Positions 2,764 through 58,695 of a DNA stretch of 64,000 nucleotides are shown here, one piece after another (the first letter of the stretch is position 1; every line of letters starts with the position of its first letter). A model generated the notes under the pieces. The model ran no database searches. It was not told the DNA's origin and was given only the letters and a program-made list of their open reading frames with translations. Origin of the DNA: Acetobacteraceae bacterium. GTDB lineage: Bacteria > Pseudomonadota > Alphaproteobacteria > Acetobacterales > Acetobacteraceae. The position numbers and the translations under genes were made by a program. The DNA lies in NCBI GenBank assembly GCA_947475245.1, contig CANJLW010000007.1:62001-126000 (forward strand), in the 5' to 3' direction.

Positions 2764-2822
2764 GACGTTGTTCACTTCCGTTGGTAGGTCTGGTGAATCG
2801 AGAACCGCGCGAACGCGGCGGC

Positions 2823-3344
2823 TTAATCAAGCATGGATGGCGCCAAATGCCGAACCACGATGGCGGCCAGCGCCTCACACCCCGCCTGATCGGCCGCGTC
2901 GAAGCGGGCCAGCGACGGGCTGTCAAGGTCGAGCACGCCGAGCAGGCGGCCGTCGGCGATCAGGGGGATGACGAGTTCGGAGCGTGAGGCGGAGTCACAG
3001 GCGATGTGGCCCGGAAACGCTTCCACATCCGGCACCAGAACTGATCGGCGTTCCGTCGCGGCGGTGCCACAGACGCCCTTTCCCAGGGCGATGCGCACGC
3101 AGGCGGGTTGTCCCTGAAACGGTCCCAGCACCAGTTCGCCGCCGCGCAGAAAATAAAATCCGGCCCAGTTGAGGTCGGGCAGGCTGTTGTAAATCGCGGC
3201 GGCGGCGTTGGCGGCATTGGCGACCGCGTCGGGTTCCCCGGTCAGCAGAGCATCCAATTCGGCCGCCAAACCGCGATAGAGTTCCGGTTTATCCGTCGCC
3301 TGCCAGCTTGGCATCCATGGGGCGGCTTTGGTCGGATCATGCAT
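2823..3344 (-). CDS. msrC: Free methionine-R-sulfoxide reductase (GAF domain)
   Basis: A 173-residue GAF-domain enzyme that reduces free methionine-R-sulfoxide in the cytoplasm, normally with thioredoxin. Three cysteines, C82, C92 and C116, have the spacing (10 and 24 residues) of the three redox cysteines described for E. coli fRMsr. LNWAGFYFL, ALGKGVCGTAA and SELVIPL are family segments. The open frame extends to 3386, but the ATG at 3344 has an excellent AAAGGAGGG ribosome site six bases upstream and gives the usual length. A perfect FNR/FixK-type palindrome (3373-3386) lies just upstream, between this gene and the divergent small membrane protein. Confidence 0.92.
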   Translation of the reverse strand: MHDPTKAAPWMPSWQATDKPELYRGLAAELDALLTGEPDAVANAANAAAAIYNSLPDLNWAGFYFLRGGELVLGPFQGQPACVRIALGKGVCGTAATERRSVLVPDVEAFPGHIACDSASRSELVIPLIADGRLLGVLDLDSPSLARFDAADQAGCEALAAIVVRHLAPSMLD

Positions 3345-3372
3345 GCGATGCCCTCCTTTGATCTGGGCTGAG

Positions 3373-3386
3373 TTGATCTGGATCAA
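3373..3386. promoter_or_regulatory. Perfect FNR/FixK-type operator TTGAT-N4-ATCAA
   Basis: The 14-bp sequence TTGATCTGGATCAA is a perfect match to the binding consensus of FNR/FixK/ANR proteins of the CRP family. It is centred about 65 bp before the ATG at 3445 and 35 bp before the divergent ATG at 3344. For the + strand gene, an operator at -41.5 would put the transcription start near 3421, leaving a ~24-base leader containing the ribosome site. Activation of the small gene, and possible repression of the reductase gene, are inferred. Confidence 0.75.
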
Positions 3387-3444
3387 GGCGCAATCCAGAC
3401 GGCGGGATTTTCATGGGGCTCTTAGATACAGAAGGAGATGTCGC

Positions 3445-3600
3445 ATGAATACGATGCCAATCACCGCCGACTCGTTCACCGTACCGGCGCCCAAGGCTGC
3501 CAAACGCGATCCGGGTCATATCGTCCCCGCTCTGGTCGGCTTCGCCATTGTCGCGTTTACGGCCATCGTGTCGATGATGATGTCCGGTCTGCCGCACTGA
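3445..3600 (+). CDS. Small single-span membrane protein, 51 aa, unknown function
   Basis: A 51-residue protein with a polar N-terminus (residues 1-25), one hydrophobic segment (about 26-47, ending in SMMMSG) and a short GLPH tail. The start is supported by the ribosome site GAAGGAG five bases upstream. I do not recognise the family. Size and topology recall accessory subunits of membrane complexes such as CydX- or CcoQ-like peptides, but no sequence feature proves this. The FNR/FixK-type box upstream suggests induction at low oxygen. The stop lies 3 bp from the convergent kup stop. Confidence 0.7.
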   Translation: MNTMPITADSFTVPAPKAAKRDPGHIVPALVGFAIVAFTAIVSMMMSGLPH

Positions 3601-42506: not shown

Positions 42507-43526
42507 TCACGCGGACGCCAGCGCGCTTTGCGGCACGCGGCCCGACCGTTCTTTGTAGACCCGCTCGTAGATGACGGCGCGCTGCATGATGGCATCGTCG
42601 ATTGGGCGGTCGTTTTCGATATTCAGCCACAGCCGCAGCAAGTGCCGGGTATGGGCGGGCGAATCCTGATACGCGTCGCGCGCGTGCAGCATCTGGAAAT
42701 TGTGCCACAGCAGGATTTCGCCGGGTTCGAGCATGTAATGAATGCTCAGATCGTCGCGTTCCGCCAGGACATCGAAATAGTCGAGCGCTTCACGCAGTTT
42801 CGCGGGCAGAGGCTCGTTGCGCAAATCCGCCGCGCGATCGATGAACTGGCGCGAATAGCCGCAGCTGACGATGTCGTCGATGCAGCAAAAGACGGGGATC
42901 TTGAAGTCGGTTACGGGCTGGCCGGAAAACCGCGCTTCGATGATCGCGTAATAATAGCCTTCGTACAGGGCTTCCAGCAGGTCGGGCCGGGTGGCGAGGA
43001 TTTCGTTGTGGATGGCCATGCTGCTGACGATCCGGCTGAGTCCGCCGGTCTCGGCGCGTTGCAGGCACAGCAGGCCGACCATGCGGTACGAATCGGTATG
43101 CGGTGTCAGTTCCTCGTTGCTGCGATAGCCGCGCACGACGGGATCGTCCTTGACGTGGCGTACATGGCCCAGCCGATCGCCCAGCATGCTTTGCGTCGCG
43201 GCTTCCCCCAGATGGGTGCCGATGCCCCAATAGATACGTTCCATATCTTCTTCGGAGTGGGTATCCCGCGTCAGCCCCGACAGGAGTACGGCACCGCGAC
43301 CGTGGCGGATCGTTTCGTCGAGCCAACGCGCCAGCGCCGCGACTTCCGGGTGATCGAAATCGTCGCGCGTCACGTCTTGCGGCTTCAGGTGTCGGGTCTT
43401 GGCCAGAAGCGTATCGAATGCGCCGAGTTGGGCCGCGGTCAGGCGATGTGTCAAACCGGCCTTGCCGCCGATCGAGCGGTTGGTCCACGCGTTCGGTGTC
43501 GCGATCACGCCGCGAAAAACGTTCAT
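42507..43526 (-). CDS. TauD/TfdA-type hydroxylase
   Basis: A 339-residue Fe(II)/2-oxoglutarate oxygenase. The metal site is HTD in ELTPHTDSY and the distal His in NFQMLHARDAY, with the co-substrate Arg in HLLRLWLN. The longer form with an N-terminal ~100-residue extension resembles the gamma-butyrobetaine-hydroxylase or clavaminate-synthase-like branch. The substrate is unknown. The ribosome site GGAGG precedes the ATG. It is not closely related to the dioxygenase at 33411. Confidence 0.85.
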   Translation of the reverse strand: MNVFRGVIATPNAWTNRSIGGKAGLTHRLTAAQLGAFDTLLAKTRHLKPQDVTRDDFDHPEVAALARWLDETIRHGRGAVLLSGLTRDTHSEEDMERIYWGIGTHLGEAATQSMLGDRLGHVRHVKDDPVVRGYRSNEELTPHTDSYRMVGLLCLQRAETGGLSRIVSSMAIHNEILATRPDLLEALYEGYYYAIIEARFSGQPVTDFKIPVFCCIDDIVSCGYSRQFIDRAADLRNEPLPAKLREALDYFDVLAERDDLSIHYMLEPGEILLWHNFQMLHARDAYQDSPAHTRHLLRLWLNIENDRPIDDAIMQRAVIYERVYKERSGRVPQSALASA

Positions 43527-43718
43527 GCCCGTTCCTCCGTCCCATCAGATTCCACGCCGCCATTGGGGGCGTTTTCAGGACTCAACACGCCTGGATCGCG
43601 GCTGGCAACCGGCGATCGCATCCGCCCGGATGACGCTGGGATGCGATATGCGCTAACCTTGTCGGGACGCATAGTCGCGGGCGACACCCGTATCGCAAAC
43701 TTTACATAGGGCAACACG

Positions 43719-44513
43719 ATGAACCTGACATCCGGATTGATCCGCGCGGAAACGCAAGGCGCCATTGGCTGGCTGATCTGGGACAATCCCACCAAGCTGA
43801 ACGCGCTTTCCCCCGGCATGTCGGAAGACGCGCTGACGGTGATCGAAGCGTATGAGGCCGATCCCGCCATCAAGGTCGTGATCATGCGCGGCTCGGGCCG
43901 CAAGGCGTTCATTTCCGGCGGCGACATCAAGAGCTTCGACAAGACCCGCGCGAACGCCGAGGTCGCGCGTCAGGCGCGGGAAGCGCCGGAAAAGCTGCGC
44001 CTGAAGATGCTGAACCTGGAAAAGCCGTTGATCGCGATGATCTACGGCTATTGCCTGGGCGGCGGTCTCGGGATGGCGCTGAATGCCGATCTGCGGTTTG
44101 CGTCGTCCGATTCCCAGTTCAGCGTGCCCGCGGCGCTGCGCGGCATCGCCTATGCGCCGGCCGGCCTGAAATCGCTGGTCGATCTGGTCGGTCCGAGCGT
44201 CGCAAAGGACATCATGTTCTCTGCTCGTCGGATCAAGGCGGATGAGGCGCTGCGGATCGGACTGATCAACCGTGTGGTGGACGCCGAGGAGTTGGAGGCC
44301 GTGACGGTCGCCTATGCGGAAACGCTGGCCGTGAACGCGCCGCTGTCGATCAAGGCGTCGAAGTACTTCATCAACCAGTTGGGTCTGGAACGCGCCCAGC
44401 GCGATGAGGACCGGATGGAAGCGATGCAAAGGGAAGCCGAGAACAGCGAGGACTTCAAGGAAGCGACGGCGTCCTTCGTCGAAAAGCGCAAGCCGGTCTT
44501 CACGGGTCGCTGA
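43719..44513 (+). CDS. Enoyl-CoA hydratase/isomerase family protein
   Basis: A 264-residue crotonase-fold enzyme. The oxyanion-hole and CoA motifs are GSGRKAFISGGDIKSF and PLIAMIYGYCLGGGLGMALNADLRFAS, followed by FSVPAALRGIAYAPAGLKSLVDLVG. Ser and Ala residues occupy places where hydratases have the two catalytic Glu, so it may be a different crotonase reaction such as decarboxylation or hydrolysis; this needs an alignment. It is transcribed alone, with an intrinsic terminator right after the stop. Confidence 0.9.
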   Translation: MNLTSGLIRAETQGAIGWLIWDNPTKLNALSPGMSEDALTVIEAYEADPAIKVVIMRGSGRKAFISGGDIKSFDKTRANAEVARQAREAPEKLRLKMLNLEKPLIAMIYGYCLGGGLGMALNADLRFASSDSQFSVPAALRGIAYAPAGLKSLVDLVGPSVAKDIMFSARRIKADEALRIGLINRVVDAEELEAVTVAYAETLAVNAPLSIKASKYFINQLGLERAQRDEDRMEAMQREAENSEDFKEATASFVEKRKPVFTGR

Positions 44514-44520
44514 TCCGGGT

Positions 44521-44563
44521 GACTGCCCCTCTGTCCCGCACGCGGGACAGAGGGAGTCGTTTT
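44521..44563 (+). terminator. Intrinsic terminator of the enoyl-CoA hydratase gene
   Basis: CCCTCTGTCCCG pairs perfectly with CGGGACAGAGGG around a CACG loop; outer GACT and AGTC extend the stem, and TTTT follows. It ends at the stop of the convergent TPR gene. Confidence 0.9.
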
Positions 44564-45459
44564 CAGGGGGTGATGCGCGCCGCGCAGGCGGCATGGTCGC
44601 GTGCGATTTCGGTGTTGGCGGCAAATGCCTTCCGCAACGCGCCCAGGCGAATATGCGCCTGCTGCCATTGCTCGTAACGCATCGGGTCGCGCGCGAAGTT
44701 CAGCACGGTCGGCAGACCGTCGGCGCGGGTGGCAAAGTCGGATAGTTGTTTCACCGCCTGTGTCAGCAAGGCCGTGACATCGTCGGGTCGTCCCGCGTCG
44801 AACAGGGTCATCGCGCCGAAGCTGTAGCCCAAAGCCTCATGCGGGAGGTGAACGCGCATCGCTTCCCACCGCTTCAGAGCCAGATCGAGATCGCCGCGCG
44901 CCTGGGCCTGACGGGCATAGGCGACCTGTATATCCCGGTTATCGGGATGCAGTTCCGCTCCGGCTTCCAGCACCGCATCGGCCTTTTCCGCCATGCCGGC
45001 CGCGCTGTAGGTCGCCGCCGCCCCAAGGTGGTACGTCAGGTGGCCGGGAAAGCGCTTGTTGAGCGTCGTCCAACGTTCGATCGCGGCCGGCCAGTCGCGG
45101 CGATGATGGGCCAGCCAGGCGTGTTCCACGCTGAAGCGCGGTTCGGTCGAGAACGTCTCGGCTGCCTGCCCGAACAGCGCCTCTCGCTCCGCCAACAGGC
45201 CGGCATGACCGAGACAGACCAGCCCTTCGTCGTAGGCGACCAACGAGTCTGGGGTTTTCGCGCGCGCCTGCGCCCACAGTCGCGCCGCCAACGGCCAGTC
45301 TTCCCGCTGCTGCGCGGCGCGCGCTGCCTCCGCCGGCGTTGCCGCCGCGTCGACGCCGGGCAAAGCGGCCTGGGTGGGCGTGGGTGTCACGGTCGGCGCG
45401 GGGGCTGGTTGGGCGACGGCCTTCGCCGCCGGTTTGATCTTCTTTTTTACTTTGGCCAT
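44563..45459 (-). CDS. Short TPR protein, last gene of the giant TPR operon
   Basis: A 298-residue protein with a Lys-rich N-terminus (AKVKKKIKP), a Pro/Ala/Thr-rich linker, then three to four TPR-like units with the same REDW..A...W and RRDWPAAIERW signature as the three giant neighbours (RFPGHLTYHLGAAATYSAAGMAEKADAVLEAG). It lacks their C-terminal domain. Function is unknown; it may be an adaptor. The ATG overlaps the previous stop by one base (TGATG); the frame upstream to 45489 is part of the neighbour. Confidence 0.82.
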   Translation of the reverse strand: MAKVKKKIKPAAKAVAQPAPAPTVTPTPTQAALPGVDAAATPAEAARAAQQREDWPLAARLWAQARAKTPDSLVAYDEGLVCLGHAGLLAEREALFGQAAETFSTEPRFSVEHAWLAHHRRDWPAAIERWTTLNKRFPGHLTYHLGAAATYSAAGMAEKADAVLEAGAELHPDNRDIQVAYARQAQARGDLDLALKRWEAMRVHLPHEALGYSFGAMTLFDAGRPDDVTALLTQAVKQLSDFATRADGLPTVLNFARDPMRYEQWQQAHIRLGALRKAFAANTEIARDHAACAARITP

Positions 45460-48400
45460 CACACTTTCTCCGCTTCCGCCGTCGAGCACGCTTCAATAAA
45501 CATTCGATCCAATGCGTCGATCTCCCGATTGCTTAAATCCGTTTTTAGCATTGCATGAATTTCCGAAACGGTCGGCATCGAAGGATCGAAGAACGACGAG
45601 TTCCGGAGCACGGGAAGCTGTTCCGCGAGGATGCCGCGATACAGCGTCAGCAGACCCAGCGCTTCATGATTGCGCAGGGTACGCGGCAGGCCATAGGGAA
45701 TCTTGCCGGCTGTTTGCCATGCGGTCAGGTCGTTCAACACGGCGGCATAGATATCCATGACGTCCGGCGCGCCGACGGCGAACTGATCGCCCAGTTCCAG
45801 TTTGTCGTGCACGTAGCGCAACGGTAGGTCGGTAAACAGAAGACGTTCCGCGTGGGCGCGGGCGTGCACCGCCGACCAATCGACCGGCGCTTCGCGGGTG
45901 ATGGCGATGTCCGGGCGAATGCGCAGGATCAGATCGAATGCGATACCGCTTTCGCGCGCCATGCGATGCGCGCGTTCGATCTTGTAGTGCATCTTCCAGA
46001 CATTGGCGCGTCCGACGAAGCGACCGTCCTTGTCGTCCTCCACGGCGACATGCGGGGTGCCGTAGAACGCCTGAAGCCGAGCGACATCGACATCGGCCGC
46101 CAGCACGGCCTCGGCCAAGGTCGGGTAGCGCTGTCGCAGGAACGCCACCGCGTCGGGCCCGCCCAGATTATCGGTCAATTCCGGAAAGCGCGTGGCGAAG
46201 GCCCAGATGCGCCGCCAGTTGCGTCCGATATCGCGCCAGGTATCGACGAAATACGTCACATCGTGGTGGTCCAGGCCAAGTCTGGACCAGGACTGAAACG
46301 CCTTTTGGTATCCGCGGAGTTGCCCGGACACGCAGACGGCGATTTTCAGGCGTTCGCGACCGGGAACACCGGCGGCGGCGCGCGCGTGATGGGCGATGCT
46401 GCTCACCACCGCTTCGGGGGTCGTCAGGTCGGCGGGCGGCGCGCCGATCGCGGGCGGAACGAGTTGTCGAAACACCGCGTGATTGAACACCGCGCCAAAG
46501 GTCAGCAGCGACAGGCGTTCCACCGGGTCGACGCGCGTTGCGTCGTTCGCGTCGACCGACCGCGCGAAAGCGGCACCAATGACCCCGGCCCGCGCCGGAT
46601 CGTGCGCCCATTGGGTGGCGGAAAACAGAAATGCCGTCAGCGCGATCCGACCGGTGCGCACAAACCGGGGCAGGATGTCGGCCAGCGCGCTGTCGGAGGG
46701 CGTTTCCCCCAGCGCGCGCCGCATGACCGCCAGGGTTGCCGCGGTAAAGGCATTCTTCGGTTCATCGCGCAGGAAGGCGCGCGCAAGGTCGATCTGCGCC
46801 GACTGGGAGGGGCGCATTTGCGCCAGACGCGCGATGACGGGCAGCCAGTCCGGGGTGCCGGGATCGGCTTCGGCGACAAGCACCCTCAGTGTCGCGGTTG
46901 TCTGTTCGGTGGACCGCCCCGCCTGAAACAGCCGCCAGGCGAGATCGAGCACCAGGCCCGCATCCGCCTCGGGGTCGGCGGCCAGGGTTTGCCACAGCGC
47001 GAATACGTCGTCGGATCGGCCGGCGCCTTCCGCCAGATCCACGGCCTGTTCGATCAACGCGCGATCCTTCGGCCACCGCCGACGCGCTTCCGTCAGTGCC
47101 GCCCAAGCGTCGTCGATCCGGGCCAGAGCGGTCAGCGCGCGGATATAGCGGACCGTCACGTCGCGATCCTCGGGGTGGCGGCGCACGGCATCGCCGAAGC
47201 GTTCGGCCGCGGCGGCGATATCACCGCGTCGGCTGGCCAGATCGCCCCATACACGTCGGATTTCCAGGCTGCCGGGCAAGAGGCGGACGCCCTCGCTCGC
47301 CAACGCCTCCGCCGCCTCCGTCCGGCCTTGTTCCATCATCATCCAGGCCGCGAACACGTATCCGGCATGATGTCCGGGGAACAATTCGCGGAACCGCGCC
47401 CAGCGGCTCAGCACTTCCTCGAACGGTTTCGATCGCGGCGCGAGGTGCGCCCAGGTAAACCAGACATCCAGCGCGCCGGGAAAGCGTGCCAGGGCATCGT
47501 CCAGCACGGCGTCGGTTTCCGCCACGCGGCCGCATTCGGCGAGGCAGCGCGCGGTTTCAAGCTGGACTCGCATTTCGTGGGGGAAGGCCTGCCGCACGGC
47601 GCACCAGCGATCAGCTGCCGTCGGCCATTCCTGCCGCCGAGCGGCCAGTTCCGCCCAGCTTGTGGCGAGGCCGAGATTGCCGGGATTGTTCAACCGGCCT
47701 TCATCCAGCAGCCGTTCGGCGTCCGCGTCCCGCCCCACCCGCGCCAGCGCCTGGCTGCCGAAGACGTAACCTTCCGGCGCATGCGGCAACAGGCCGCGCA
47801 CCGTTTCCCAGCGTCGTACCGCTTCCGCCCAGTCGTTTCGCCGCACCGCCAAATCCGCCCAGGCGCCGGCGATGGCGGCGTTGTCCGGCCAGGTGCCCAT
47901 CGCGGTCGTCAGCAGCGTATCCGCGTCCTCGGTCCGGTCGAGGCGCAGCAATGCGCGCGCGCCCTCGATGTAGCCAAGATCGCGATCGGCGAACCGGCCG
48001 CGGAATGCCGCCCAGCGTTCGGCGGCGGCCGCGTGGTCGTCGCGCCGTTCCGCGAGCCGAGGAAATTCCATCGCCAGATTGATATCGTTTGGAAACTGTT
48101 CGATCGCCCGCGCGATGACGGCTTCGGCGCCGGGTAAGTCTCCGGCATCGCGCAGACACGCGGCACCCTCGATATAGCCGCGCGGGTTCGCGGGAAAACG
48201 CTCCCGCACCGCAGCCCATCGCGGCAGCGCGGCGGCGAGATCGCCTCGGTGATGCGCCTGACGCGCGTGCACGACGAAGAACTCGGGATTATCCGGGCTC
48301 GCCGCCATCGCCCGTTCCAGCAGCGCATCGGCGCCGGCCGCATCGCCGGCGGCGGACAGGGTGAAGGCGCCGCCGAGATACCCCGACAAATGGCCGGGAA

Positions 48401-48704
48401 ACAGGCGATGCAGGCGCTGCCACCGTTCCGTCGCCGCCGTCCAGTCGCGGCGGTGGTGCGCCATCCAGGCGAACTCGATCGCCGGGCGCTCCAGATGCGG
48501 AAACCGCTCACTGGCTTCCCCATACAGGGCTTCCATATCCAATGGCCGCCCCGCCTTGCCCAGGCAATGCACCGCTTCCAGCCACCCATCCGGGCGATCC
48601 GGGTGTTGCGCGCGTACATCCGCCCAAAGCGTCAGCGCCGTGTCCCAATCCTCTCGCGCCTGCGCCGCCTGGGCTTCGGCGATCGCGGTATCCGCGGTGC
48701 TCAT
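45459..48704 (-). CDS. Giant TPR protein with glycosyltransferase-like C-terminal domain (paralogue 1)
   Basis: A 1081-residue protein. Residues 1 to ~600 hold about nine tandem 68-residue TPR-pair units with the recurrent core RRxDWxxAxxRWxxxRxxFPxxxxGYxxGAxxL. A helical linker spans ~600-784. The C-terminal domain (785-1081) starts RLKIAVCVSGQLRGY and has W..IGRNWRRIW, VWKMHYKI, FDLILRIRPD (RIRPD 928-932), LGDQFAVGAPDVMD (GDQ 972-974) and RNHEALGLL. These recall GT-A-type transferases of polysaccharide loci, by pattern only. There is no signal peptide or membrane span. The start overlaps the preceding gene (ATGA). Confidence 0.85.
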   Translation of the reverse strand: MSTADTAIAEAQAAQAREDWDTALTLWADVRAQHPDRPDGWLEAVHCLGKAGRPLDMEALYGEASERFPHLERPAIEFAWMAHHRRDWTAATERWQRLHRLFPGHLSGYLGGAFTLSAAGDAAGADALLERAMAASPDNPEFFVVHARQAHHRGDLAAALPRWAAVRERFPANPRGYIEGAACLRDAGDLPGAEAVIARAIEQFPNDINLAMEFPRLAERRDDHAAAAERWAAFRGRFADRDLGYIEGARALLRLDRTEDADTLLTTAMGTWPDNAAIAGAWADLAVRRNDWAEAVRRWETVRGLLPHAPEGYVFGSQALARVGRDADAERLLDEGRLNNPGNLGLATSWAELAARRQEWPTAADRWCAVRQAFPHEMRVQLETARCLAECGRVAETDAVLDDALARFPGALDVWFTWAHLAPRSKPFEEVLSRWARFRELFPGHHAGYVFAAWMMMEQGRTEAAEALASEGVRLLPGSLEIRRVWGDLASRRGDIAAAAERFGDAVRRHPEDRDVTVRYIRALTALARIDDAWAALTEARRRWPKDRALIEQAVDLAEGAGRSDDVFALWQTLAADPEADAGLVLDLAWRLFQAGRSTEQTTATLRVLVAEADPGTPDWLPVIARLAQMRPSQSAQIDLARAFLRDEPKNAFTAATLAVMRRALGETPSDSALADILPRFVRTGRIALTAFLFSATQWAHDPARAGVIGAAFARSVDANDATRVDPVERLSLLTFGAVFNHAVFRQLVPPAIGAPPADLTTPEAVVSSIAHHARAAAGVPGRERLKIAVCVSGQLRGYQKAFQSWSRLGLDHHDVTYFVDTWRDIGRNWRRIWAFATRFPELTDNLGGPDAVAFLRQRYPTLAEAVLAADVDVARLQAFYGTPHVAVEDDKDGRFVGRANVWKMHYKIERAHRMARESGIAFDLILRIRPDIAITREAPVDWSAVHARAHAERLLFTDLPLRYVHDKLELGDQFAVGAPDVMDIYAAVLNDLTAWQTAGKIPYGLPRTLRNHEALGLLTLYRGILAEQLPVLRNSSFFDPSMPTVSEIHAMLKTDLSNREIDALDRMFIEACSTAEAEKV

Positions 48705-51700
48705 ACCCGTTGCTCCACTTGCAGCGCGCAGGCCTCCAGCAACTGACGGCAGAAGTCCGGGGCGGCTTCGGGATGGGCGTCCTGTCGCGCCAGTTCGGCC
48801 ACCCGCGCAGGGGTCAGGACGGCGGGGTTGAGCAGGTTTTTGCCGCGCAGTCCGGGAATCGCGCCGGTCGTCACACCGCGGGCGAACAGCGACGTGCCCA
48901 ATGTTTCATGCGCTTTGTGCGTCGGCGGGGCGCCGATGACCGCCGCCAGGGTCGGATCGAAGTCGACGGTGTCGGCGTAGACCTGCATCGGGCCGGGTGC
49001 GCCGATGGCCAATTGATCGCCGGCCTTAAGCTTCCCGTCGGGGAAGGTGAACAGGACCGGCGAGTCGAGGAACAGGCGATGATCCCGTCGCGATTCATGG
49101 GCGATCGCGTGGAAGTCGACCTCCGCGCCAAACCCCAGTTGAACGTCCGGCCGAATGCGCAGGATCAGGTCGAAGGGATCGCCCGACGCCGTTGCCAGAT
49201 TATGCGCCTGTTGGATTTTGTACAGCATCTTCCAATCGTTGGGTCTTCCCGCGAACGGCGGCAGGGCATCGTCTTCCAACACCACCGCGTCGGTTTGGTA
49301 AAATGCGCTCACGCCGGCCTCGGTCGCCGTGGCCTCGGCGCGCAGGCCGTCATTCGCCGCGGCCGCCAGCGTTGGGAAGCAGGACGCGAGCAGAGCCGGC
49401 CCATCGGCGCGCGACAGCACGGCATGCGCGCCGGGATGCGTCGTCCGGAAAAAATCCCAGTTCCGCATCCAGTTCAGGCCGACATTTTTCCAGCTATGAA
49501 CGAAGATGCGCGTTTCGTGCCGCCACAGGCCGGAGGTCGCCCAACTGGCGAAGGCCTGCTTGTAGCCGCGCAACTGCCCGGACACGCATACGGCGATGCG
49601 CAGCGGTCGATCCGAGGTTTGGACGATTGCCGGCGCGCCCGATATTCGATCCGCCCGCGATGCCGCCCGGACCAGCCGAACCAGCACGCCCGCCGCATCG
49701 CCTTCCCCGTCCAACGGCTGATCCCGCAGTTCGGCGATCGCGGTCCAGAAATCATCGGGCAGATGCATCGACCCCGCCGCAAGCGCCAGTACCGTCCCCT
49801 GTTCGGCTTCATTCCGCGCGCGCAGCCGCCGCGACAAGAGGTCCAGCACCGCTTCCCGCCACGCCTTGCGATTGTTCAGGACATAGGTGGAATAGATATA
49901 CGATGCCAAACCGAAGCGGCCCGGGCGCAGGACGCGATCCTCGATCTCCGTCACGTCCGCGGCGGTGGGCGGGATATCCAAGGCCGCGATCCACAGCAGG
50001 CGGTGCGGGGAATTTTCGAACAGCGCGTGGTTCGCATCGAAAAATGCCCGCAGCGCCGGCCAGGGCGCTTCCGGCATCAGCACCAGCGCATGCAGCACGG
50101 CAGCCGCGCGCGGTGCCCAATCCACCGCCAGAGTGTCCTGTTCCGTCGCCAGATAGCCCAGCAGGTCGGGCGTATTGTCCGTGTTGGGATCGATGCGCAA
50201 AATTTCGCGCGCGAGATTAAGCTTGCGTTCCACCTGTTCCGGCGTGGCGTCGGGCATCGAGTCCCAGGCGGCGAAGGCGATCTTCGGGTCCCGATTTTTC
50301 ATCGCCAGGTCGGCGCGCGCGGCGAGCAATTCCGGCCGGTCCGGATGGCGCGCCAAAGCCGCGTCGATCACCGCCATCGAGTCCGACCATCGACCGGTCG
50401 CGCCATGCATATCGACCAACCCTAGCACGGGTCCCAACTCGTTGGGAAACCGCGCGATCGCCTCCTGAAACAATGCTTCGGCTTCCGCCGTACGCGACAG
50501 ATGGCGCAGGGCCTGCGCGCCGCCGGCGAAGCTGATCCAAATCGGCGGGAAACTGCGTCGGTATTCCGCCCAATGGGCTTCCGCCGCCGCCCAATCGCGG
50601 GTTTCCTCGGCAAGACGAGCAAGTTCGTGGCGCGGCATGGCTGCGTGGGGCAAGCGGGCAAGGGCAGCTTCGAGCAGCGCCCGCGCCGGATCGAACAGGC
50701 CGCGTTGGCGCAGACTGTAGGCCTCTCCGGTATAGCCGTCCCAATCGTCCGGTCGCAGCGCGCGGTACTCGGCCCAGAGGCCGGCCGCCGCACTCCAGTC
50801 GCCCCGTTGTTCGGCGAAACGGGCGAGTTCGCGCGTCGCCCCGGGTTCGTTCGGTAAAGCCTGACGGGCGCGTGTCAGTACCGACTCCGCCTCCTCCGCC
50901 CGGCCTTGCCGGCGCAGCGCGTTCGCCAGTCCGGCATAACCGAACCAAACCGGCGGGAAGCGTTCCAGGTAGCGCGTCCAGGCGGATTCGACCTCCGCCC
51001 AGTCGCCGGCTTCCTCCGCCAGTCGCGCCAGATCGTGCAGCGGGCGCTCCTGATCGGGGAAGCGCTCGGCGGTTTCCCCGAGGACCAGGCGCGCGGCGGC
51101 GCCGTCGCCGGATTTGTGCAGTGCTCGGGCGCATTCGGCCGGTGCCAGCGCGAAGTCGGGCCAGCGCGCCTGCATCAGGGTCCATCGGCGCACCGCCTCG
51201 GCCCACGAACTCCGGCGCATCGCGAGTTCCGCCCAGACGAAGGCGACGCCTTGATGCGTGGGAAAGACGGACTGCGCCGATTGCATCAGCCGTTCCGCCG
51301 CGTCCGCCTGATCGGCGGCCTGCAAGGCCCGCGCGCCTTCGCAGTAAGGGGTGGCATCGTTGGGGAAACGTTCTTGCAGCAAGGCCCAGCGGCGGCTTGC
51401 CTCCGCGTGGTCGCCCCGCCGCGTCGCGAGGTCGGCCCAGACGATGCCGCCGCCCAGAAATCCCGGAAACCGTTCGACCAACCGCGAGGCGGCCTGTTCG
51501 GCTCCGTCGCGATCGCCCAGTTCGCGTCGGGCGACCGCGGCCTGACTGTGGCAGTGCGGGTCTTCCGGTCGTTGGACGCACAGACGATCCCACGCATCGG
51601 CGGCACGCGCCCAATCGCCGGCCGCGTGGGCTTGCGCCGCCTGTTCCGCCAGGGCACCGGCATCGATCTCGGTCACGTCGGATGTCTCTCCTGCGATCGG

Positions 51701-51706
51701 CGTCAC
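48701..51706 (-). CDS. Giant TPR protein with glycosyltransferase-like C-terminal domain (paralogue 2)
   Basis: A 1001-residue protein with about eight 68-residue TPR-pair units (residues 1 to ~510), a helical linker and a C-terminal domain (700-1001) that starts RPLRIAVCVSGQLRGY and repeats the family motifs: SWKNVGLNWMRNWDFF, DWKMLYKIQQAHNLA, FDLILRIRPD (850-854) and AGDQLAIGAP (GDQ 896-898). The GTG at 51706 overlaps the upstream stop (GTGA). A GTG ten codons later (51676) has a GGAG site 11 bases upstream and aligns better with the starts of the two paralogues, so it is a good alternative. Confidence 0.85.
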   Translation of the reverse strand: MTPIAGETSDVTEIDAGALAEQAAQAHAAGDWARAADAWDRLCVQRPEDPHCHSQAAVARRELGDRDGAEQAASRLVERFPGFLGGGIVWADLATRRGDHAEASRRWALLQERFPNDATPYCEGARALQAADQADAAERLMQSAQSVFPTHQGVAFVWAELAMRRSSWAEAVRRWTLMQARWPDFALAPAECARALHKSGDGAAARLVLGETAERFPDQERPLHDLARLAEEAGDWAEVESAWTRYLERFPPVWFGYAGLANALRRQGRAEEAESVLTRARQALPNEPGATRELARFAEQRGDWSAAAGLWAEYRALRPDDWDGYTGEAYSLRQRGLFDPARALLEAALARLPHAAMPRHELARLAEETRDWAAAEAHWAEYRRSFPPIWISFAGGAQALRHLSRTAEAEALFQEAIARFPNELGPVLGLVDMHGATGRWSDSMAVIDAALARHPDRPELLAARADLAMKNRDPKIAFAAWDSMPDATPEQVERKLNLAREILRIDPNTDNTPDLLGYLATEQDTLAVDWAPRAAAVLHALVLMPEAPWPALRAFFDANHALFENSPHRLLWIAALDIPPTAADVTEIEDRVLRPGRFGLASYIYSTYVLNNRKAWREAVLDLLSRRLRARNEAEQGTVLALAAGSMHLPDDFWTAIAELRDQPLDGEGDAAGVLVRLVRAASRADRISGAPAIVQTSDRPLRIAVCVSGQLRGYKQAFASWATSGLWRHETRIFVHSWKNVGLNWMRNWDFFRTTHPGAHAVLSRADGPALLASCFPTLAAAANDGLRAEATATEAGVSAFYQTDAVVLEDDALPPFAGRPNDWKMLYKIQQAHNLATASGDPFDLILRIRPDVQLGFGAEVDFHAIAHESRRDHRLFLDSPVLFTFPDGKLKAGDQLAIGAPGPMQVYADTVDFDPTLAAVIGAPPTHKAHETLGTSLFARGVTTGAIPGLRGKNLLNPAVLTPARVAELARQDAHPEAAPDFCRQLLEACALQVEQRV

Positions 51707-54700
51707 GCGGCCAGGGCGGCTTCCGCCGCGGCGATAAACTGACGATCGAAATCGTCTTCCTCGCGACGAGCAATATCCTGCCGCGCGAGAGCGAGCACTT
51801 CGGCGATCGAGAGCATGGCCGGGTCAAGCAGCGCGCCGAAGGTGACATTCGGCATCATTCGACCGATCAGACCCCGGTAGAAGCACAGATAGAACAGATT
51901 GGTATGCGGCCGGATATGATCGGGGACGTCGGGCGGGAAGGCACCGGCGCGGGTGAATTCTTCCATATCGGAATAAACCCCGGTGTAGACGTCCATCACA
52001 TCCTGCGTTCCGACGGCGAACTGATCGCCCAGCCAGGTCTGGCGTTCGGTGAACAGATAGGGCGAGTCGGTGTAGACGATCCGGCGTGCCTGGGACTCTG
52101 CATGGATCGCGTTCCAGTCCGGTGCCGATCCGGGCAGGAATTCCCGATCCGGGCGCAGGCGGATGATCAGATCGAAGGCGCGTCCGTCTTCCAGCGCCAG
52201 CTTGTGCGATTGGTCGACCTTGTAGTGCATCTTCCACAAATTGTGCCGATTGCGGAATTGGTCGCGGGTATCGTCCTCGATCCGCACGAAATCGGTATTA
52301 TAGACGGCTTTCAACTCGTCCTCGCGCGCGTCGTTGCCTTCCGACGCCGCCGCTTCGGCTGCCGCTGCCAGGGTGGGATAGCGATCGCGCAGAAACGCCA
52401 GGCCGCTGGGGCCGACGAGCGTGTCGTACATCATCTTGTTGGATCGGGTGAAGAACCAGATGCGCTGCCAGTTGCGGCCGATGGCCTTCCAGACATGCAC
52501 GAAGACCGACACATCGTGATCCTGCAAGCCCAGATGCGTCCAGGTGCGCACCGCCTGCTGATAGCCGCGCAATTGGCCGGAGACGCAGATGGCGACGCGC
52601 AGACGGCGCTTGACCGGCACCGCGGGCGGCGGATCGATCCGAGCCTCCAGCCCGATATTGCCGACGACACCGGCGATCGTGTGCAACCCTTGCGCCCGCA
52701 TCGCTTGCAAATCCAGGCATTGCCGCATGGCGCGGATCAATGACGCATAGGTGTCGGCGGAATGGACCGCGGCAAAGTTCAGATAGGCCAGAATCTCCGC
52801 CGCGTTACCCGCGGTGAGCCAGGACACATCCTGCCAACGATCCGCCATGTATTCCTCGAACGCCGCGGTAAAGCGTTCGAACATGTTCTTCTTGGTCTTC
52901 CAGTAGTTCTGACAGAACAGATGCGCGGTCAGCGCGACCCGGCCCTTGGCGACGTATTCCCGCAGGAAGTGCTGCAAGCCCCGATCCGAGTATTCATACA
53001 GCAGCGCGCACCGCACCACATCCATCGTCGCGGGGTCGCAGGGCGCATTTGGTTCGGCGTCCAGGATTTCCCGCGCCAGATAGGACAGTTGCGGCTTCAG
53101 GCCGCGCAATTGCAGAAATCCGGCCAGCACGGGCAGCCAGTCGCGCGCGCCGGTGTCTTTTTCCTGGATGAGGTACAGCAGCGCTTCCCGCGCCAGCGGT
53201 CGCGGCAGTCCTTCGCCATACATCGTCCAGGCCAACTCGTAGCCCAGGCCCGCCGGCAAATCCGGTTGCGCGATGGCGCGCTGCCAAAGGGCGAAAGCGC
53301 CTTCGACCTGACCGACCCGTACATCCAGCATGATGCGGCTGCGCAGGAAGCCGGGATCGTTCGGCCAGGTCCGCAGCACGTCGTCCAACGCCGCCCGCGC
53401 GTCGTCCTGACGTTGCAGCGCGATCAGGCCTTCGACCCATCGCCGAGCAAGCGCCAGATCGTTGGGAAAACGGCGCGCCGCGGCCGAAAACCGGTCGGAC
53501 GCCAGCGCCAGATCGCCGCGCCGGGTCGCGATTTCTCCGGCGGCGCGCAGCACATCGATCTGGTCGGGGAACCGCGCAACGGCGGCATCGATCAGCGCTT
53601 CCGCTTCGTCCGCGCGCCGAGCATCCTGCAAGGCATGGGCGCCGAACACATAGCCGGGCGTGTGTTGAGGAAAAATCTCCCGCACGCGGCGCCAGCGCGT
53701 CAGCATTGTCTCGTTGTCGCGATGACGAACGGCCAGCAAGGCCCAGTGAAACATCGGATCGAGATTGGCGGGGAAGCGCGCCATTGCTTGTTCGAGCAGC
53801 GTTTCGGCGTCATCGACCCGGGCGAGATTCAGCAGCGCCGTGGCGCATTCCACCCAGGGGCGGGTTTCGTCCGGCAGCCCATCGCGGCAGATGTCCCAGC
53901 GTCGGACCGATTCCGCCCAGTCGCCGGAGCGCGCCGGCGCTTCGGCCCAACTGAAGCGCAAATGCGCGTTGCGCGGAAACAGTTCTCCGCCTTCGAACAG
54001 CAGCGCGTCGGCCTCGGCGTCGCGTCCCGCCGATCGCAGCGCGCGGGCACCTTGCACATAGGCAATCGGTTCGTCGCGGAATGTTTGCCGGATCGTTTCC
54101 CAGCGTCGAACCGCCTCTCCCCAAAGTTCCCGTCGCATGGCGGCTTCGGCCCAGGCGATGGCGACCGGCGCGTGCGTCGGCGCGTCGCCCGTGTCGCCGG
54201 ACAGCGCCGCGTCGGCTTCGTCGTTTCGGCCGAGCGCCTGGAGTGCGTGGGCGAGTTCGACGACGCCGGCGGGTTGATTGGGAAAGCGCCGCCGGACTTT
54301 GCGCCAGCGTTCGGCGGCCAGCGCCCAGTCCTGTCGCCGCGTCGCCAGATCGGCCCACCCGGTCGCGATCGCCAGATCGCCGGGAACGGCTTGCGCGGCC
54401 TGTTCCAGCAGCGCCTCGGCGTCTTCATGCAACCCCAGCCTTTGCTTCAGGCGGGCGGCTTCGACATACCCGATGGGATGGGCGGGGAAGCGGGCGCGAA
54501 CGATCGCCCAGCGGCGATCCGCCTCTGCCCTGTTCGCGGGATCGTCGGATGCCGCGACCAGCGCGTTGCCGGCCCAGGCGAAGTCGACGCAGATCGTTTG
54601 ATTGTCCGGGAACCGTTCAACCGCCGAACCCAGGACGGCGTCGGCCTTCGCCGGCGTGCCGGCCGCGCGCAGGGCGGACGCGCCGTGGGAGTATCCGATC

Positions 54701-55437
54701 AGATTATCGGGAAAGCGGGCGCGCATTGCCGCCCAGCGATGGGCGGCTTCGGGCCAGTCCCCGGCTTCCTGCGCGGTCAGGGCAAATTCCAGCAAGGGTC
54801 CGGGATCGGACGGGAACCGCGCGAGCGCGCCGGCCAGCATCGCTTCCGCTTCGGTATGGCGTCCCTTGCCGCGCAGCGTCTGCGCGGCGCCGGTATAGCC
54901 GACGGGATGGTCGGGCACGCGTCGCCTGACCTCTGCCCAACGACGCAGTGCTTCGTCGGTATCGAGGTGGTGTTGGGCGAAATAGCCCCAGGCGGACAGC
55001 ATCCATGCCGCCTGCTGGACGGTTTGGCTGCCTTCGTCCAACACGTGGTCAGCCTGATCCAGCAGCCCCATCTGTTCCAGCGCCTGCGCGCCCTGGACGT
55101 AGCCGTGCGCGTCGCGCGGGAAGGCGGCGCGGATAGCGGCCCAGCGTGTATTCGCTTCTGCCCAATCGCGGCTTCGGGTCGCGAGGTCGGCCCAGACGAT
55201 GCCGGCGCCCAGAAACTCCGGGAATCGTGACCGCGCCACGAGGATCGCCTGCTCCGCCCCCGCGATATCGCCCTGTTCCCGCAGCGCGACGGCGTACTCG
55301 CTGTGGCAAAGCGGCTCCTCCGGCCGGTGGGCGATCAGCGCTTGCCAAAGCGGCGCGGCTTTTGCCCAATCCCGTCTGTCATGCGCCGCGCGGGCGGCCA
55401 GAGCGAGTTCGGCGGTGTCGGTTTGCACGATATCCAC
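51703..55437 (-). CDS. Giant TPR protein with glycosyltransferase-like C-terminal domain (paralogue 3)
   Basis: The first gene of the tandem and the longest, 1244 residues. About ten or eleven 68-residue TPR-pair units (residues ~1-700), a helical linker, and the C-terminal domain (944-1244): LRVAICVSGQLRGY, VWKAIGRNWQRIWFF, LWKMHYKVDQSHKLA, FDLIIRLRPD (1093-1097), LGDQFAVGTQDVMDVY (GDQ 1137-1139). The start is a GTG with an AGGGGT ribosome site. Repeat number differs between the paralogues while the C-terminal domain stays constant in length, which points to duplication followed by repeat gain or loss. The 119 bp upstream hold no clear promoter; DUF1501 precedes it on the same strand. Confidence 0.85.
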   Translation of the reverse strand: MDIVQTDTAELALAARAAHDRRDWAKAAPLWQALIAHRPEEPLCHSEYAVALREQGDIAGAEQAILVARSRFPEFLGAGIVWADLATRSRDWAEANTRWAAIRAAFPRDAHGYVQGAQALEQMGLLDQADHVLDEGSQTVQQAAWMLSAWGYFAQHHLDTDEALRRWAEVRRRVPDHPVGYTGAAQTLRGKGRHTEAEAMLAGALARFPSDPGPLLEFALTAQEAGDWPEAAHRWAAMRARFPDNLIGYSHGASALRAAGTPAKADAVLGSAVERFPDNQTICVDFAWAGNALVAASDDPANRAEADRRWAIVRARFPAHPIGYVEAARLKQRLGLHEDAEALLEQAAQAVPGDLAIATGWADLATRRQDWALAAERWRKVRRRFPNQPAGVVELAHALQALGRNDEADAALSGDTGDAPTHAPVAIAWAEAAMRRELWGEAVRRWETIRQTFRDEPIAYVQGARALRSAGRDAEADALLFEGGELFPRNAHLRFSWAEAPARSGDWAESVRRWDICRDGLPDETRPWVECATALLNLARVDDAETLLEQAMARFPANLDPMFHWALLAVRHRDNETMLTRWRRVREIFPQHTPGYVFGAHALQDARRADEAEALIDAAVARFPDQIDVLRAAGEIATRRGDLALASDRFSAAARRFPNDLALARRWVEGLIALQRQDDARAALDDVLRTWPNDPGFLRSRIMLDVRVGQVEGAFALWQRAIAQPDLPAGLGYELAWTMYGEGLPRPLAREALLYLIQEKDTGARDWLPVLAGFLQLRGLKPQLSYLAREILDAEPNAPCDPATMDVVRCALLYEYSDRGLQHFLREYVAKGRVALTAHLFCQNYWKTKKNMFERFTAAFEEYMADRWQDVSWLTAGNAAEILAYLNFAAVHSADTYASLIRAMRQCLDLQAMRAQGLHTIAGVVGNIGLEARIDPPPAVPVKRRLRVAICVSGQLRGYQQAVRTWTHLGLQDHDVSVFVHVWKAIGRNWQRIWFFTRSNKMMYDTLVGPSGLAFLRDRYPTLAAAAEAAASEGNDAREDELKAVYNTDFVRIEDDTRDQFRNRHNLWKMHYKVDQSHKLALEDGRAFDLIIRLRPDREFLPGSAPDWNAIHAESQARRIVYTDSPYLFTERQTWLGDQFAVGTQDVMDVYTGVYSDMEEFTRAGAFPPDVPDHIRPHTNLFYLCFYRGLIGRMMPNVTFGALLDPAMLSIAEVLALARQDIARREEDDFDRQFIAAAEAALAA

Positions 55438-55556
55438 AATTACCCCTGGCCTGTTGGCCTTGCCTGTCGATCAGACGCATCGAAACCAAAAAAGATTGAC
55501 GAAGCACGAATACCGGCCCCGCTTTTAGCCTGTCCCCATCGGCGATTAAACAACGA

Positions 55557-56738
55557 TCACGCGCGCAGGATACCCGTGAGTGGACCGGCCGACCCGCTGT
55601 CGGGGAAAATCAGCGCGCGATCGGCCTGATCCAGGTTGTAATGGGCGGCGGCGATACCCTTTGCAACAGAACGCAAATCCGTCACGCCGCGCAGGTCCCG
55701 ATCCTCGAACAACTGTCCGGGCGCGAGTCCGGGCCAATCGCCGATGATCCGGCCGCCCGCCACCGCGCCGCCCAACAGCAGCGCGATGCCGCCGGTGCCG
55801 TGATCGGTGCCGCCCGCGCCGTTCACCCGCGCGGTGCGTCCGAATTCGGACATCACCAGTACCACGGTTTTCGCCCAGATCGGGCCCAGCGCGGTCTTCA
55901 GCGCCGCCAACCCGTCGTCGAGCGTGCGCAGCCCGAACGACAGGCGCGCGACCTGGCCGCCATGTGTATCCCACCCCTCGGAATCCAGTGTCGCCAATCG
56001 CGGCCCGTCGTGTGCCGCCAACAACCGGCCGGCCCTGTCGGCCAGGCGGACGAAGGCCCCGGCATTCGGCGGCGGTTCCACCCCGTTCAGGACTGCGGCG
56101 GTAAACCCGCGATCGCGCAGACCGGCGGCAAAGGCGGGGCCGGTGACCGGATCGCCCCGATGCATGGCCACCAGTCGGGTGACGAAATCCAGGCTGGGTT
56201 CCGGCCATACCGGCGGCGCCCAGTTATTCACCGGTGTCGGGCCGCGCAGCAGCAGCGGCACCGACGCCCCCACCGCGACCGCCGCGTCGCTTTCCCCGCG
56301 TTTCGGCAACAGCCCCGCCAAACGATTGAGCCAGCCGCTGCCAAGCCGACGATCCGCGCCGGATTCGAGGAAGTCCTGGGCGTCGAAGTGACTGCGGTTG
56401 CGATACGGGCCGGCGACCGCGTGCACGATCGCGGCCTCTCGGGCGCGGTACAATGCATGCAACCCGATCATCGCGGGATGCAGCGCGAAGAACCCGTCGA
56501 GGTCCAACATCCCGTTGGGTGCCCCCGGCGGCGGCGGCACCAGCGTCGCGCGCAGGTCGGACAGGTTACGGTCGCCATAGGGCACGACCAGGGCCATGCC
56601 ATCGAGCCCGCCGCGTAGGGTGATCGCGACGAAGCGCCGATCGGTGGCCGCGGTCGCAAACGCCAGCGACGACCGCCCGAGCGTGAACGCCCCGGTCAGG
56701 CCGGCTAAGAGTCCCCGACGGGAAACAGATCGGATCAT
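55557..56738 (-). CDS. DUF1501 family Tat-exported protein
   Basis: A 393-residue protein with a twin-arginine signal (SVSRRGLLAGLTGAFTLG), so it is probably exported folded through Tat. Family parts are FVAITLRGGLDGMALVVPYGD, YRNRSHFDAQDFLESG, LDSEGWDTHGGQ, VLVMSEFGRTARVNGAGGTDHGTG and ALLLGGAVAGGRIIGDWPGL; these recall alkaline-phosphatase/sulfatase-fold metal sites. Function is unknown. The ATG overlaps the DUF1800 stop (ATGA). Pairs of DUF1501 and DUF1800 genes are common and probably act together outside the cytoplasm. Confidence 0.92.
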   Translation of the reverse strand: MIRSVSRRGLLAGLTGAFTLGRSSLAFATAATDRRFVAITLRGGLDGMALVVPYGDRNLSDLRATLVPPPPGAPNGMLDLDGFFALHPAMIGLHALYRAREAAIVHAVAGPYRNRSHFDAQDFLESGADRRLGSGWLNRLAGLLPKRGESDAAVAVGASVPLLLRGPTPVNNWAPPVWPEPSLDFVTRLVAMHRGDPVTGPAFAAGLRDRGFTAAVLNGVEPPPNAGAFVRLADRAGRLLAAHDGPRLATLDSEGWDTHGGQVARLSFGLRTLDDGLAALKTALGPIWAKTVVLVMSEFGRTARVNGAGGTDHGTGGIALLLGGAVAGGRIIGDWPGLAPGQLFEDRDLRGVTDLRSVAKGIAAAHYNLDQADRALIFPDSGSAGPLTGILRA

Positions 56739-58036
56739 CGCCTCTGGAACTCCGGAGAGGTCAGCAACAGGGTCAGCCCGTCGCGCTGCGATCCCGCGGC
56801 GCGAACCTGGGCGAGCGTGGCGGTGCCGAGAAGGTCGCCGAGGAGATCGCGGGCCAGGGTTTCCGGCTGCATGCGGCCGAAGTGCAGGGCCAGCCGATAG
56901 ACCCAATCGACGCGGCGCATCAGCGCTTCGCCGCTGGTCCAGCTCGCGGCCGTATCGTCGAAGCCGTTCGGCAGCGGCGCGCCCAGCATCGGCTGGCCCA
57001 AGGTCGGCAGAACGGTGTGCAACTCCGTCATCGGTGCCTCCGTCATATCCAGCCCGCGCAACACCGCGAACACATAGTCCATCGGGGCGCGGATTTTCGT
57101 CAGCGGCTTCCAGGCCTCCGGCGTCGCCAATAATGCCAGGGTCGCCGCCTTCAGATCGCCGCCGGTGGCGATCAAGGCGGCTTCGATCGGACGGATGGTG
57201 GCTTCCGGCGGCGTGTCGGACACAAAGTGACGCGCGAGCTTGGTCGCGAGGTTGCGGAACGTAAGCGGATGAGTCGCGAGCCAGGCGATCAGCGCCTGCC
57301 CGCCCTGCTGACCGGTCGGGTAGGCGCGCCCCAGCACGGTCTTTGGTCCCGGTTCGTGAAAATCCTCTCGGAACAGCGCGCCCGATCGCCCGCCGCCAAT
57401 CTCGAACGTCCAGCCGGTCAGGATTTTCGCGTACTCGATGACATCGGCCTGCGTGTAGCCGCCGGCCTGGGTCACACTGTGCAGTTCCAACGATTCCCGC
57501 GCCAGATTCTCATTCAGGCCGCGACGGAAGCGCTTGCCGAGTTGGCTGTTCGGCCCGGCGGACCCCATATTATCGAGGTACATAAGCATCGCGGGATGCC
57601 GCGTCACCGCCAGCATCATGTCCGCGAAGCGCCCGGTCACGTGCGGACGGATCGCCTCTCGGATATAGGCGCCCATGACGGCCTGGATTTCGCCGCCGTA
57701 TTTCAGGCTGACGGTAAAGTGGTTCGCCCAGAACCAGACCAGACGCTCCCGAAACGGCATCCGCGTTTTCAGGAGGTTGTTGATCAGAGCCGATTGTTCG
57801 GCGGTAAACAGCGCGCCGACCCGACGGATCGGATCGAACCCGCGTTCGCTCGAATCCAACCGATCCAGCCGCAAAAACTCCAACCCCTCCGCCGCGCTCG
57901 GCCCGGGAATGGCCACCATCGGGTCCGGCGCGTCGAGTTGCCCGGTGAGCCAGGCCATGGGATCGGCGGGCGGCGGTTCACTCGGTCTGCGACCCAGGCC
58001 GAAACGGATCAAGGCATGGGCGGTACGCGCATCCAT
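56735..58036 (-). CDS. DUF1800 family protein
   Basis: A 433-residue protein of the DUF1800 family, partner of DUF1501. Core segments are RTAHALIRFGLGRRP, RERLVWFWANHFTVS, YIREAIRPHVTGRFADMMLAVTRHPAMLMYLDN, LNENLARESLELHSVTQAGGYTQADVIEYAKILTGW and NLATKLARHFVSD. No clear signal peptide is seen at the ATG 58036 start; a GTG at 58063 would add nine residues without one. Function is unknown. It probably heads the minus-strand transcript that continues into DUF1501 and perhaps the TPR genes. Confidence 0.9.
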   Translation of the reverse strand: MDARTAHALIRFGLGRRPSEPPPADPMAWLTGQLDAPDPMVAIPGPSAAEGLEFLRLDRLDSSERGFDPIRRVGALFTAEQSALINNLLKTRMPFRERLVWFWANHFTVSLKYGGEIQAVMGAYIREAIRPHVTGRFADMMLAVTRHPAMLMYLDNMGSAGPNSQLGKRFRRGLNENLARESLELHSVTQAGGYTQADVIEYAKILTGWTFEIGGGRSGALFREDFHEPGPKTVLGRAYPTGQQGGQALIAWLATHPLTFRNLATKLARHFVSDTPPEATIRPIEAALIATGGDLKAATLALLATPEAWKPLTKIRAPMDYVFAVLRGLDMTEAPMTELHTVLPTLGQPMLGAPLPNGFDDTAASWTSGEALMRRVDWVYRLALHFGRMQPETLARDLLGDLLGTATLAQVRAAGSQRDGLTLLLTSPEFQRR

Positions 58037-58695
58037 CGGTTGGTCCAATGCCCCTGGTGCCACATGACGATCCCGCAGATGGGTAGCCGATAGGGGGCAT
58101 TCCAGACCAGAAATTTCCGCTGGGCCGTTGCCGCTACGTCGCCATTGGCGCGGGATCGGCGATTGAGTACGGAGGTTGCGTGATCAGGTCTCCGCTGTTT
58201 GTTGCGCTTTCTGCCTTTGATGGGGGGATCGCCGTTGGCGTGCCCGTTGTGGTTCCGGTGGGGGAGACCCCTTGCGCCGTGACGATGCTTCCGGGGGCCG
58301 GTGCCACGCGTCGGTGCTGGAGGATGTAGGGGTTGGCGCCGACCGGCAATCCGAGGAACAAAACCCCTTGCAACGTGAGAACGCCGCCCTTGGCCAGCGC
58401 CGAGCGCCGGTTCGGCGGCGGTCTGGAAGTGACAGGACCACGGAACCAAACGATCCGCGAAACGCCCGATCATCCGAGCATCCGCCACGCCCGACGTCGC
58501 GCGCGGTGACTCCAAACAACAATGACCTCATGCAACGTGAAGAGCCGTATCGCCGAACTCAGGGGCAATGCACCGACCGCCCTTGCGCGGTGGATAACAC
58601 CCCTTGCACCGTGAGGGCGATCAATCGCCCCTGCCTTGTCACGCCGTCGGCGCGCCGCCATCTACGGTCTGTCCCACTGACAGGAACACGACCGC
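58037..58695. other. Non-coding region with a repeated 16-bp motif
   Basis: 659 bp between the divergent DUF1800 and PPOX-family genes. It holds four copies of a 16-bp motif and a degenerate fifth copy. Open frames exist on both strands but start with poor codons, lack ribosome sites and show no recognisable family, so I call none of them a gene. Confidence 0.5.
58267..58614. repeat. Dispersed 16-bp repeat, consensus ACCCCTTGCAMCGTGA
   Basis: Copies are at 58267-58282 (ACCCCTTGCGCCGTGA), 58363-58378 (ACCCCTTGCAACGTGA), 58525-58540 (ACCTCATGCAACGTGA) and 58599-58614 (ACCCCTTGCACCGTGA). A degenerate copy at 58578-58593 lies 21 bp before the last. All have the same orientation; sequences between copies are unrelated. 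The role is unknown; a multi-site operator or a small genomic repeat family are possible. Confidence 0.7.

Follow-up and report, generated by a model that had tools for sequence, protein, structure and literature searches.

What would a bacterium do with three very long TPR proteins that are encoded side by side and end in the same kind of domain? In the window analysed here, a stretch of 64,000 nucleotides from a member of the Acetobacteraceae, a first-pass annotation had described four minus-strand genes that touch or overlap, and all four open reading frames (ORFs) were found again with the coordinates and lengths in Table 1. We call their products P1 to P4. The P1/P2 and P2/P3 ORFs overlap by 4 bp each and P3/P4 by 31 bp, or by only 1 bp if P4 begins at the ATG at 45459. 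The operon probably begins further upstream with a DUF1800 gene and then a DUF1501 gene on the same strand as P1-P4; the DUF1501 ORF, taken from its ATG, overlaps the DUF1800 stop by 4 bp, with 119 bp between its own end and P1. With moderate confidence, we read DUF1800-DUF1501-P1-P2-P3-P4 as a mobile surface-glycosylation module in which P1-P3 are GT-A-fold glycosyltransferases of predicted activity. The genes, the repeats, the family of the C-terminal domain (CTD) and the linkage are taken from the sequence and the fold from prediction, and from these we infer the position of the active-site motif, activity, metal independence, action in series, acceptor, mobility and the role of DUF1501 and DUF1800.

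Table 1. Features of the probable operon, in window coordinates
Feature	Position	Strand	Description
DUF1800 protein (PF08811)	56735..58063	minus	Pfam E 2.2e-106; first gene of probable operon
DUF1501 protein (PF07394)	55557..56738	minus	Pfam E 2.1e-31; ATG at 56738
P1, 1244 aa	51703..55437	minus	TPR-pair units of 68 residues, about ten, spanning residues 17-698; then a linker and, from around residue 945, the GT-A-like CTD
P1 CTD	51706..52590	minus	
P2, 1001 aa	48701..51706	minus	About seven units spanning 25-463; then a linker and, from around residue 702, the CTD
P2 CTD	48704..49600	minus	
P3, 1081 aa	45459..48704	minus	Eight units (13-550), linker, CTD = residues 785-1081 (modelled domain)
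P3 CTD, GT-A-like domain	45462..46352	minus	
P4, 308 aa	44563..45489	minus	TPR only, about three units, without CTD

TPR arrays and the setting of the operon

A lag of 68 residues gave the strongest self-similarity in all four proteins (4.8-6.6 SD over the mean of lags 20-149), and a repeat HMM built from P1-P3 found units in each of them, about 10 in P1, 7 in P2, 8 in P3 and 3 in P4, which bears out the 68-residue TPR-pair repeat first proposed. N-terminal TPR arrays were also evident from PF14559 matches in P1, P2 and P3 (E 5.2e-27, 1.7e-22 and 1.3e-25, respectively), and TPR-type matches were the only ones of weight when P1-P4 were searched against Pfam and NCBIfam. P4 is indeed a TPR-only protein; over 190 residues it aligns with the first units of P3 at 48% identity.

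TPRs of this 68-residue type recur elsewhere in this genome, where genes were called, as in the relatives' loci, with a simple GC-periodicity caller whose output includes some wrong-frame calls. On contig C6 (136000-153000, L130) a 1138-residue protein fuses them to a WcbI domain; next come another WcbI gene and one whose product weakly matches FkbH_N. On contig C45 (1-10000, L131) the gene at 1860-3494 fuses them to an alpha/beta hydrolase domain. These two fusions suggest that this genome habitually joins a TPR array to interchangeable enzyme domains. A third protein of the same type lies on C36, where the caller gave the wrong frame, and window positions 3-1262 encode another TPR-enzyme fusion with a GT9-like (heptosyltransferase) C-terminal match.

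The neighbours scanned beside the operon (TauD, TctC, aldo/keto reductase, amidohydrolase, DUF1501 and DUF1800) included no sugar or polysaccharide gene. No foreign GC signature was found (GC 0.63-0.69 across window positions 30000-64000), and an Rfam scan of 43000-58500 gave no match. Seven same-genus stretches around an enoyl-CoA hydratase gene had no match to P1-P4, which is not proof of an empty site since no other window neighbour was found there either.

The C-terminal domain and its putative active site

The motifs described as shared by the three CTDs were found in P1, P2 and P3 using slightly relaxed patterns, with P1 having VAICVSGQLRGY and WKMHYKV. Compared with the CTD of P3, that of P2 shows 39% identity and that of P1 45%, and the three are the only credible copies in this 5.23 Mb genome (the next row had E 0.175). 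A Pfam search with the P1-P3 CTDs alone gave no credible match, none of 23 CTD relatives had one either (best E 0.007, to a short stretch of an unrelated family), and sequence searches of the PDB, with a single CTD and with a CTD profile, returned nothing credible. Among the library families, only the phage family phrog_13607 of PHROGs clearly matched the CTD (E 4.4e-8 for P3, 5.0e-6 for P1 and a weak 4.7e-4 for P2); it is a 239-position profile without annotated function, to which the proteins described here add TPR arrays.

The first-pass annotation had called the system undescribed. TPR-glycosyltransferase fusions as such are already known, so the description does not hold for the architecture, but it stands for the family to which the CTD belongs and for the link to DUF1800-DUF1501: within the libraries and literature searched, the new elements are a GT-A-like family without DXD, unnamed there, in tandem triplicate, and its tie to one particular lineage of DUF1800 together with the adjoining DUF1501. 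There is no name for the CTD by which to search that literature, and subscription literature was mostly outside its coverage. A recent triplication within this genome was rejected, as in the CTD tree, several branches of which are long and weak, P1 groups with its counterparts from the same-genus genome G850 and locus L005, and P2 with its own from the same two sources. P3 has no close counterpart in that tree, and the G850 contig stops inside P2.

The structure model of the P3 CTD has a GT-A glycosyltransferase fold with good confidence. Together with the several relatives that sit among sugar-nucleotide and glycosyltransferase genes, this agrees with the early guess of a GT-A-type transferase. 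P3 contains R928-x-R930-P-D932, G972-D973-Q974 and H1013. Judged by strand order in the model, R928-x-R930-P-D932 appears to occupy the position of the metal-binding DXD motif, which is absent; R-x-R-P-D is found at this likely place in 17 of 23 alignment rows and R-x-R-x-D in 21. H1013 probably opens an xED-like helix. D189 and H229 are also conserved in the CTD alignment (H229 in 16 of the 17 rows with a residue), and H229 starts the helix 228-238, whose match to xED (the F helix) was drawn from order and spacing only. The xED motif is variable in retaining families, according to the accessible part of PMC7185993.

Metal-independent GT-A families without DXD exist. With DXD replaced by R-x-R-P-D in the CTD, the nucleotide diphosphate would probably be held by the arginines of this motif and not by a metal ion, and the site, if catalytic, would add one more way for the GT-A fold to catalyse transfer without a metal. 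Bacterial GT6 enzymes achieve metal independence differently. BoGT6a of Bacteroides ovatus, a metal-independent GT-A enzyme of this family, is matched by the CTD at 10% identity; GT6 has NXN in place of R-x-R-P-D, and the CTD is fused to TPRs and, going by the numbering, has about 50 more residues before that motif. Pfam contains a GT6 profile, and GT6 membership was rejected on finding no match to it among the 23 CTDs at E<=1. GT41/OGT membership was likewise rejected, with no PF13844 match in P1-P4 at E<=1 or in the 23 CTDs and a GT-A fold; as a positive control, PF13844 matches a protein in the flagellin locus of this genome. DXD loss could also mean that catalysis is lost, and the CTDs of L011 (genome G109) and L019 (G018) are without R-x-R-P-D too. 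These two are possible pseudo-glycosyltransferases.

Relatives of the domain and the DUF1800-DUF1501 pair

A profile of the three CTDs was positive in 8 of 200 genomes from the family and 2 of 289 from the class, this genome included in both, and a 23-row profile in 4 of 398 genomes from the phylum, among them this genome and one already found in the class sample. Within the genus, three other sampled genomes had no match and G850 carries the cluster. Further CTD loci are two Acetobacteraceae MAG loci, three plasmid records and 10 viral loci; tblastn in phages gave no match. The viral loci include short proteins of about 240-280 residues that are related to the CTD by profile comparison (98.5% probability) over its first half only (columns 2-157). 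On viral contig L022 (121-6909) tape-measure and tail genes precede the CTD gene and a primase lies beyond it; third-position GC is 0.46 in the CTD gene compared with 0.77-0.87 in the four genes called upstream. The position and low third-position GC of the CTD gene make it look like phage cargo, which may alter host surface sugars. When 10 full-length relatives were scanned, 5 had TPRs at E<=1e-3 whereas none were detected in L048, L051, L022, L034 or L032, so the CTD is a module also found without detectable TPRs. As this glycosyltransferase-like family spans bacteria, plasmids and phages and is missing from the Pfam and NCBIfam versions searched, a group of "hypothetical proteins" acquires an activity that can be tested. 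In L050 (genome G020) two CTD genes face each other, one with TPRs then CTD and the other with CTD first and TPRs last.

A comparison of gene neighbourhoods, as proposed at the outset, placed several CTD relatives among sugar-nucleotide and glycosyltransferase genes. In L005, an Anp1-type glycosyltransferase and a TPR-WcbI protein are encoded upstream of a 1918-residue protein that fuses P1-like and P2-like CTDs, orthologous to those of P1 and P2. In L045 a GT61 gene adjoins the CTD gene and another glycosyltransferase lies further away, and plasmids of Tropicibacter and Phaeobacter carry glycosyltransferase, sulfotransferase and UDP-galactopyranose mutase genes near the CTD, with rfbA on that of Tropicibacter. 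L006, L033, L034 and L053 carry a gene trio (HAD, APH-like and NTP-transferase-like) close to the CTD gene; these are 4 of 24 CTD loci tested, a set that omits short or repeated copies of the same places, viral loci L025, L027 and L030, and also L059 and L060. The trio was found in 0 of 20 other loci and is absent from the window; some Pfam matches behind the names of trio members and neighbours fall short of the curated cut-off. In L032 the only match was a weak one to the NTP-transferase-like member (26%), and L053 encodes the NTP-transferase-like part and the CTD as one fusion, in which the former shares 44% and 40% identity with its free relatives. The trio looks like a route to an activated sugar. 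Its APH-like member had no match in this genome (in a search without a positive control), and with the trio absent from the window as well, the donor of the window enzymes would be another one.

G850 has DUF1800-DUF1501-P1-P2 in the same order as the window (identities of 65, 60-63, 59 and 47%), and in L006 the pair is convergent with a TPR-glycosyltransferase gene; DUF1501 adjoins DUF1800 in all three linked cases. The linkage is found in these 3 genomes only, the other CTD loci tested, L005 included, being without the pair. In a tree of 36 DUF1800 proteins (30 of 49 matches less a duplicate of the window, plus the window itself and six further loci, with 19 matches unused), the linked copies from the window, G850 and L006 form one clade against 33 others with a support of 100/100. 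A DUF1501 tree likewise parts linked from ordinary copies, although with seven rows, two of which (L063 and L072) held upstream codons with a stop sign, it says little alone. This genome and G850 each also carry an ordinary DUF pair. No CTD was found at 37 other DUF1800 loci (33 distinct places) in the stretches covered, mostly about 4.3 kb for the ordinary loci, so that a more distant CTD would be missed. The single clade and the lack of a CTD at these other loci suggest that this DUF1800 lineage goes with the TPR-glycosyltransferases. An EF-G-like gene lies beside DUF1800 in 16 of the 33 distinct ordinary places, all from this bacterial family (L064, L072, L073, L074, L076-L078, L080-L085, L090, L093 and L095), and not in L006 or L063; it is a conserved neighbour of ordinary DUF1800.

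The accessible part of PMC5122149 reports that bacterial chitin synthases and a sugar epimerase were co-transferred with a DUF1501-DUF1800 pair and that DUF1501 bears a twin-arginine motif. The DUF1501 N terminus here is also twin-arginine-like (SRRGLLAG, judged by eye). In both systems the pair travels with a glycosyltransferase gene, but chitin synthase is a GT2 enzyme unlike the CTDs, and TPR-glycosyltransferase genes go unmentioned in that part of the paper; two different glycosyltransferase types thus share the pair. PDB sequence searches with DUF1501 and DUF1800 gave no match. The two links provide a concrete handle on these families of unknown function, which may serve exported glycans.

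Proposed mechanism and rival explanations

In the reading that we favour, P1, P2 and P3 would be cytoplasmic Leloir-type (sugar-nucleotide-using) glycosyltransferases with GT-A-fold CTDs. Their TPR superhelices, which differ in length from protein to protein, would bring the enzymes to an acceptor or to each other, with P4 as a non-catalytic adaptor. The three CTDs seem different enough for different donors or successive acceptors, and this divergence suggests that P1-P3 may add sugars in series. The product would be a surface glycan or glycoprotein that is exported, and the Tat-type DUF1501 protein with DUF1800 would act on it or carry it outside. A more specific version, which we regard as doubtful, is a new GT-A family with an arginine pair for the DXD metal, in which three enzymes, each aimed by its own TPR superhelix, build a short glycan stepwise on one cytoplasmic acceptor that is later exported. 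This would add an acceptor exported with Tat-type DUF1501 and DUF1800 and a self-contained, mobile protein or surface glycosylation module, and if true the widespread DUF1501-DUF1800 pair would gain a function.

It is possible, with a probability that we put at somewhat below even, that the CTDs are instead capsule or exopolysaccharide glycosyltransferases whose TPRs only oligomerise or dock to an assembly complex, with no protein being glycosylated. CTD relatives do occur in surface-polysaccharide clusters on the Tropicibacter and Phaeobacter plasmids, no TPR was matched in the Tropicibacter protein at E<=1e-3, and the capsule polymerase Cps1B also holds GT-A and TPR domains in one polypeptide. 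According to the accessible part of PMC5974469, the TPR domain of Cps1B mediates oligomerisation and is dispensable for activity, so protein-acceptor selection by TPRs cannot be assumed and those of P1-P3 could, by analogy, serve oligomerisation instead. Cps1B differs in having a TagF-like domain and a DXD in its GT-A domain (same source), the scanned neighbours of the operon are not polysaccharide genes, and arrays that are very long and differ among P1-P3 suit partner selection. We consider it quite unlikely that the CTD is a GT-A-fold pseudo-enzyme that binds glycans or nucleotide sugars as a scaffold for other enzymes: the missing DXD and the two CTDs entirely without R-x-R-P-D would fit, but R-x-R-x-D is kept in most rows and in the stand-alone phage copies in the alignment, and this and the conserved D189 and H229 suit catalysis. 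That the three enzymes glycosylate the adjoining DUF1501 or DUF1800 protein is unlikely as well; the pair is adjacent, its DUF1800 lineage co-travels and the DUF1501 N terminus looks Tat-like by eye, but the pair is a companion of chitin synthases too, enzymes whose product is a polysaccharide (accessible part of PMC5122149), and ordinary copies have no such enzyme in the stretches covered.

Flagellin had been named as a possible acceptor for the three enzymes. Eukaryotic O-GlcNAc transferase joins a TPR superhelix to a transferase, and its GT41 domain is GT-B. The comparison drawn with it therefore fits the architecture but not the fold, and no GT41 profile matched P1-P4 or the CTDs. FlmG of Caulobacter, another alphaproteobacterium, likewise has an N-terminal TPR domain, which binds flagellin, and a C-terminal GT-B glycosyltransferase domain, which modifies it by O-glycosylation (accessible part of PMC7591256). 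As the OGT and FlmG domains are GT-B-type and the CTD is GT-A, the resemblance is architectural only. It is highly improbable that P1-P3 are this bacterium's flagellin glycosyltransferases with an FlmG-like function, even though they share this architecture and the genome encodes a flagellin and gives a further match, below the cut-off, on another contig. The flagellin locus (C2:309000-322000, L133), on a different contig from the operon, encodes flagellin, FlaF, a TPR-methyltransferase, a separate FlmG-like TPR-GT41 protein (PF13844, E 1.3e-33) and then a Glycos_transf_1 protein. As this locus has its own TPR-GT41, the window operon is probably not needed for flagellin modification, and the circumstantial evidence speaks against flagellin as the acceptor. 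The flagellin locus itself resembles an FlmG-like flagellin modification locus with an added methyltransferase.
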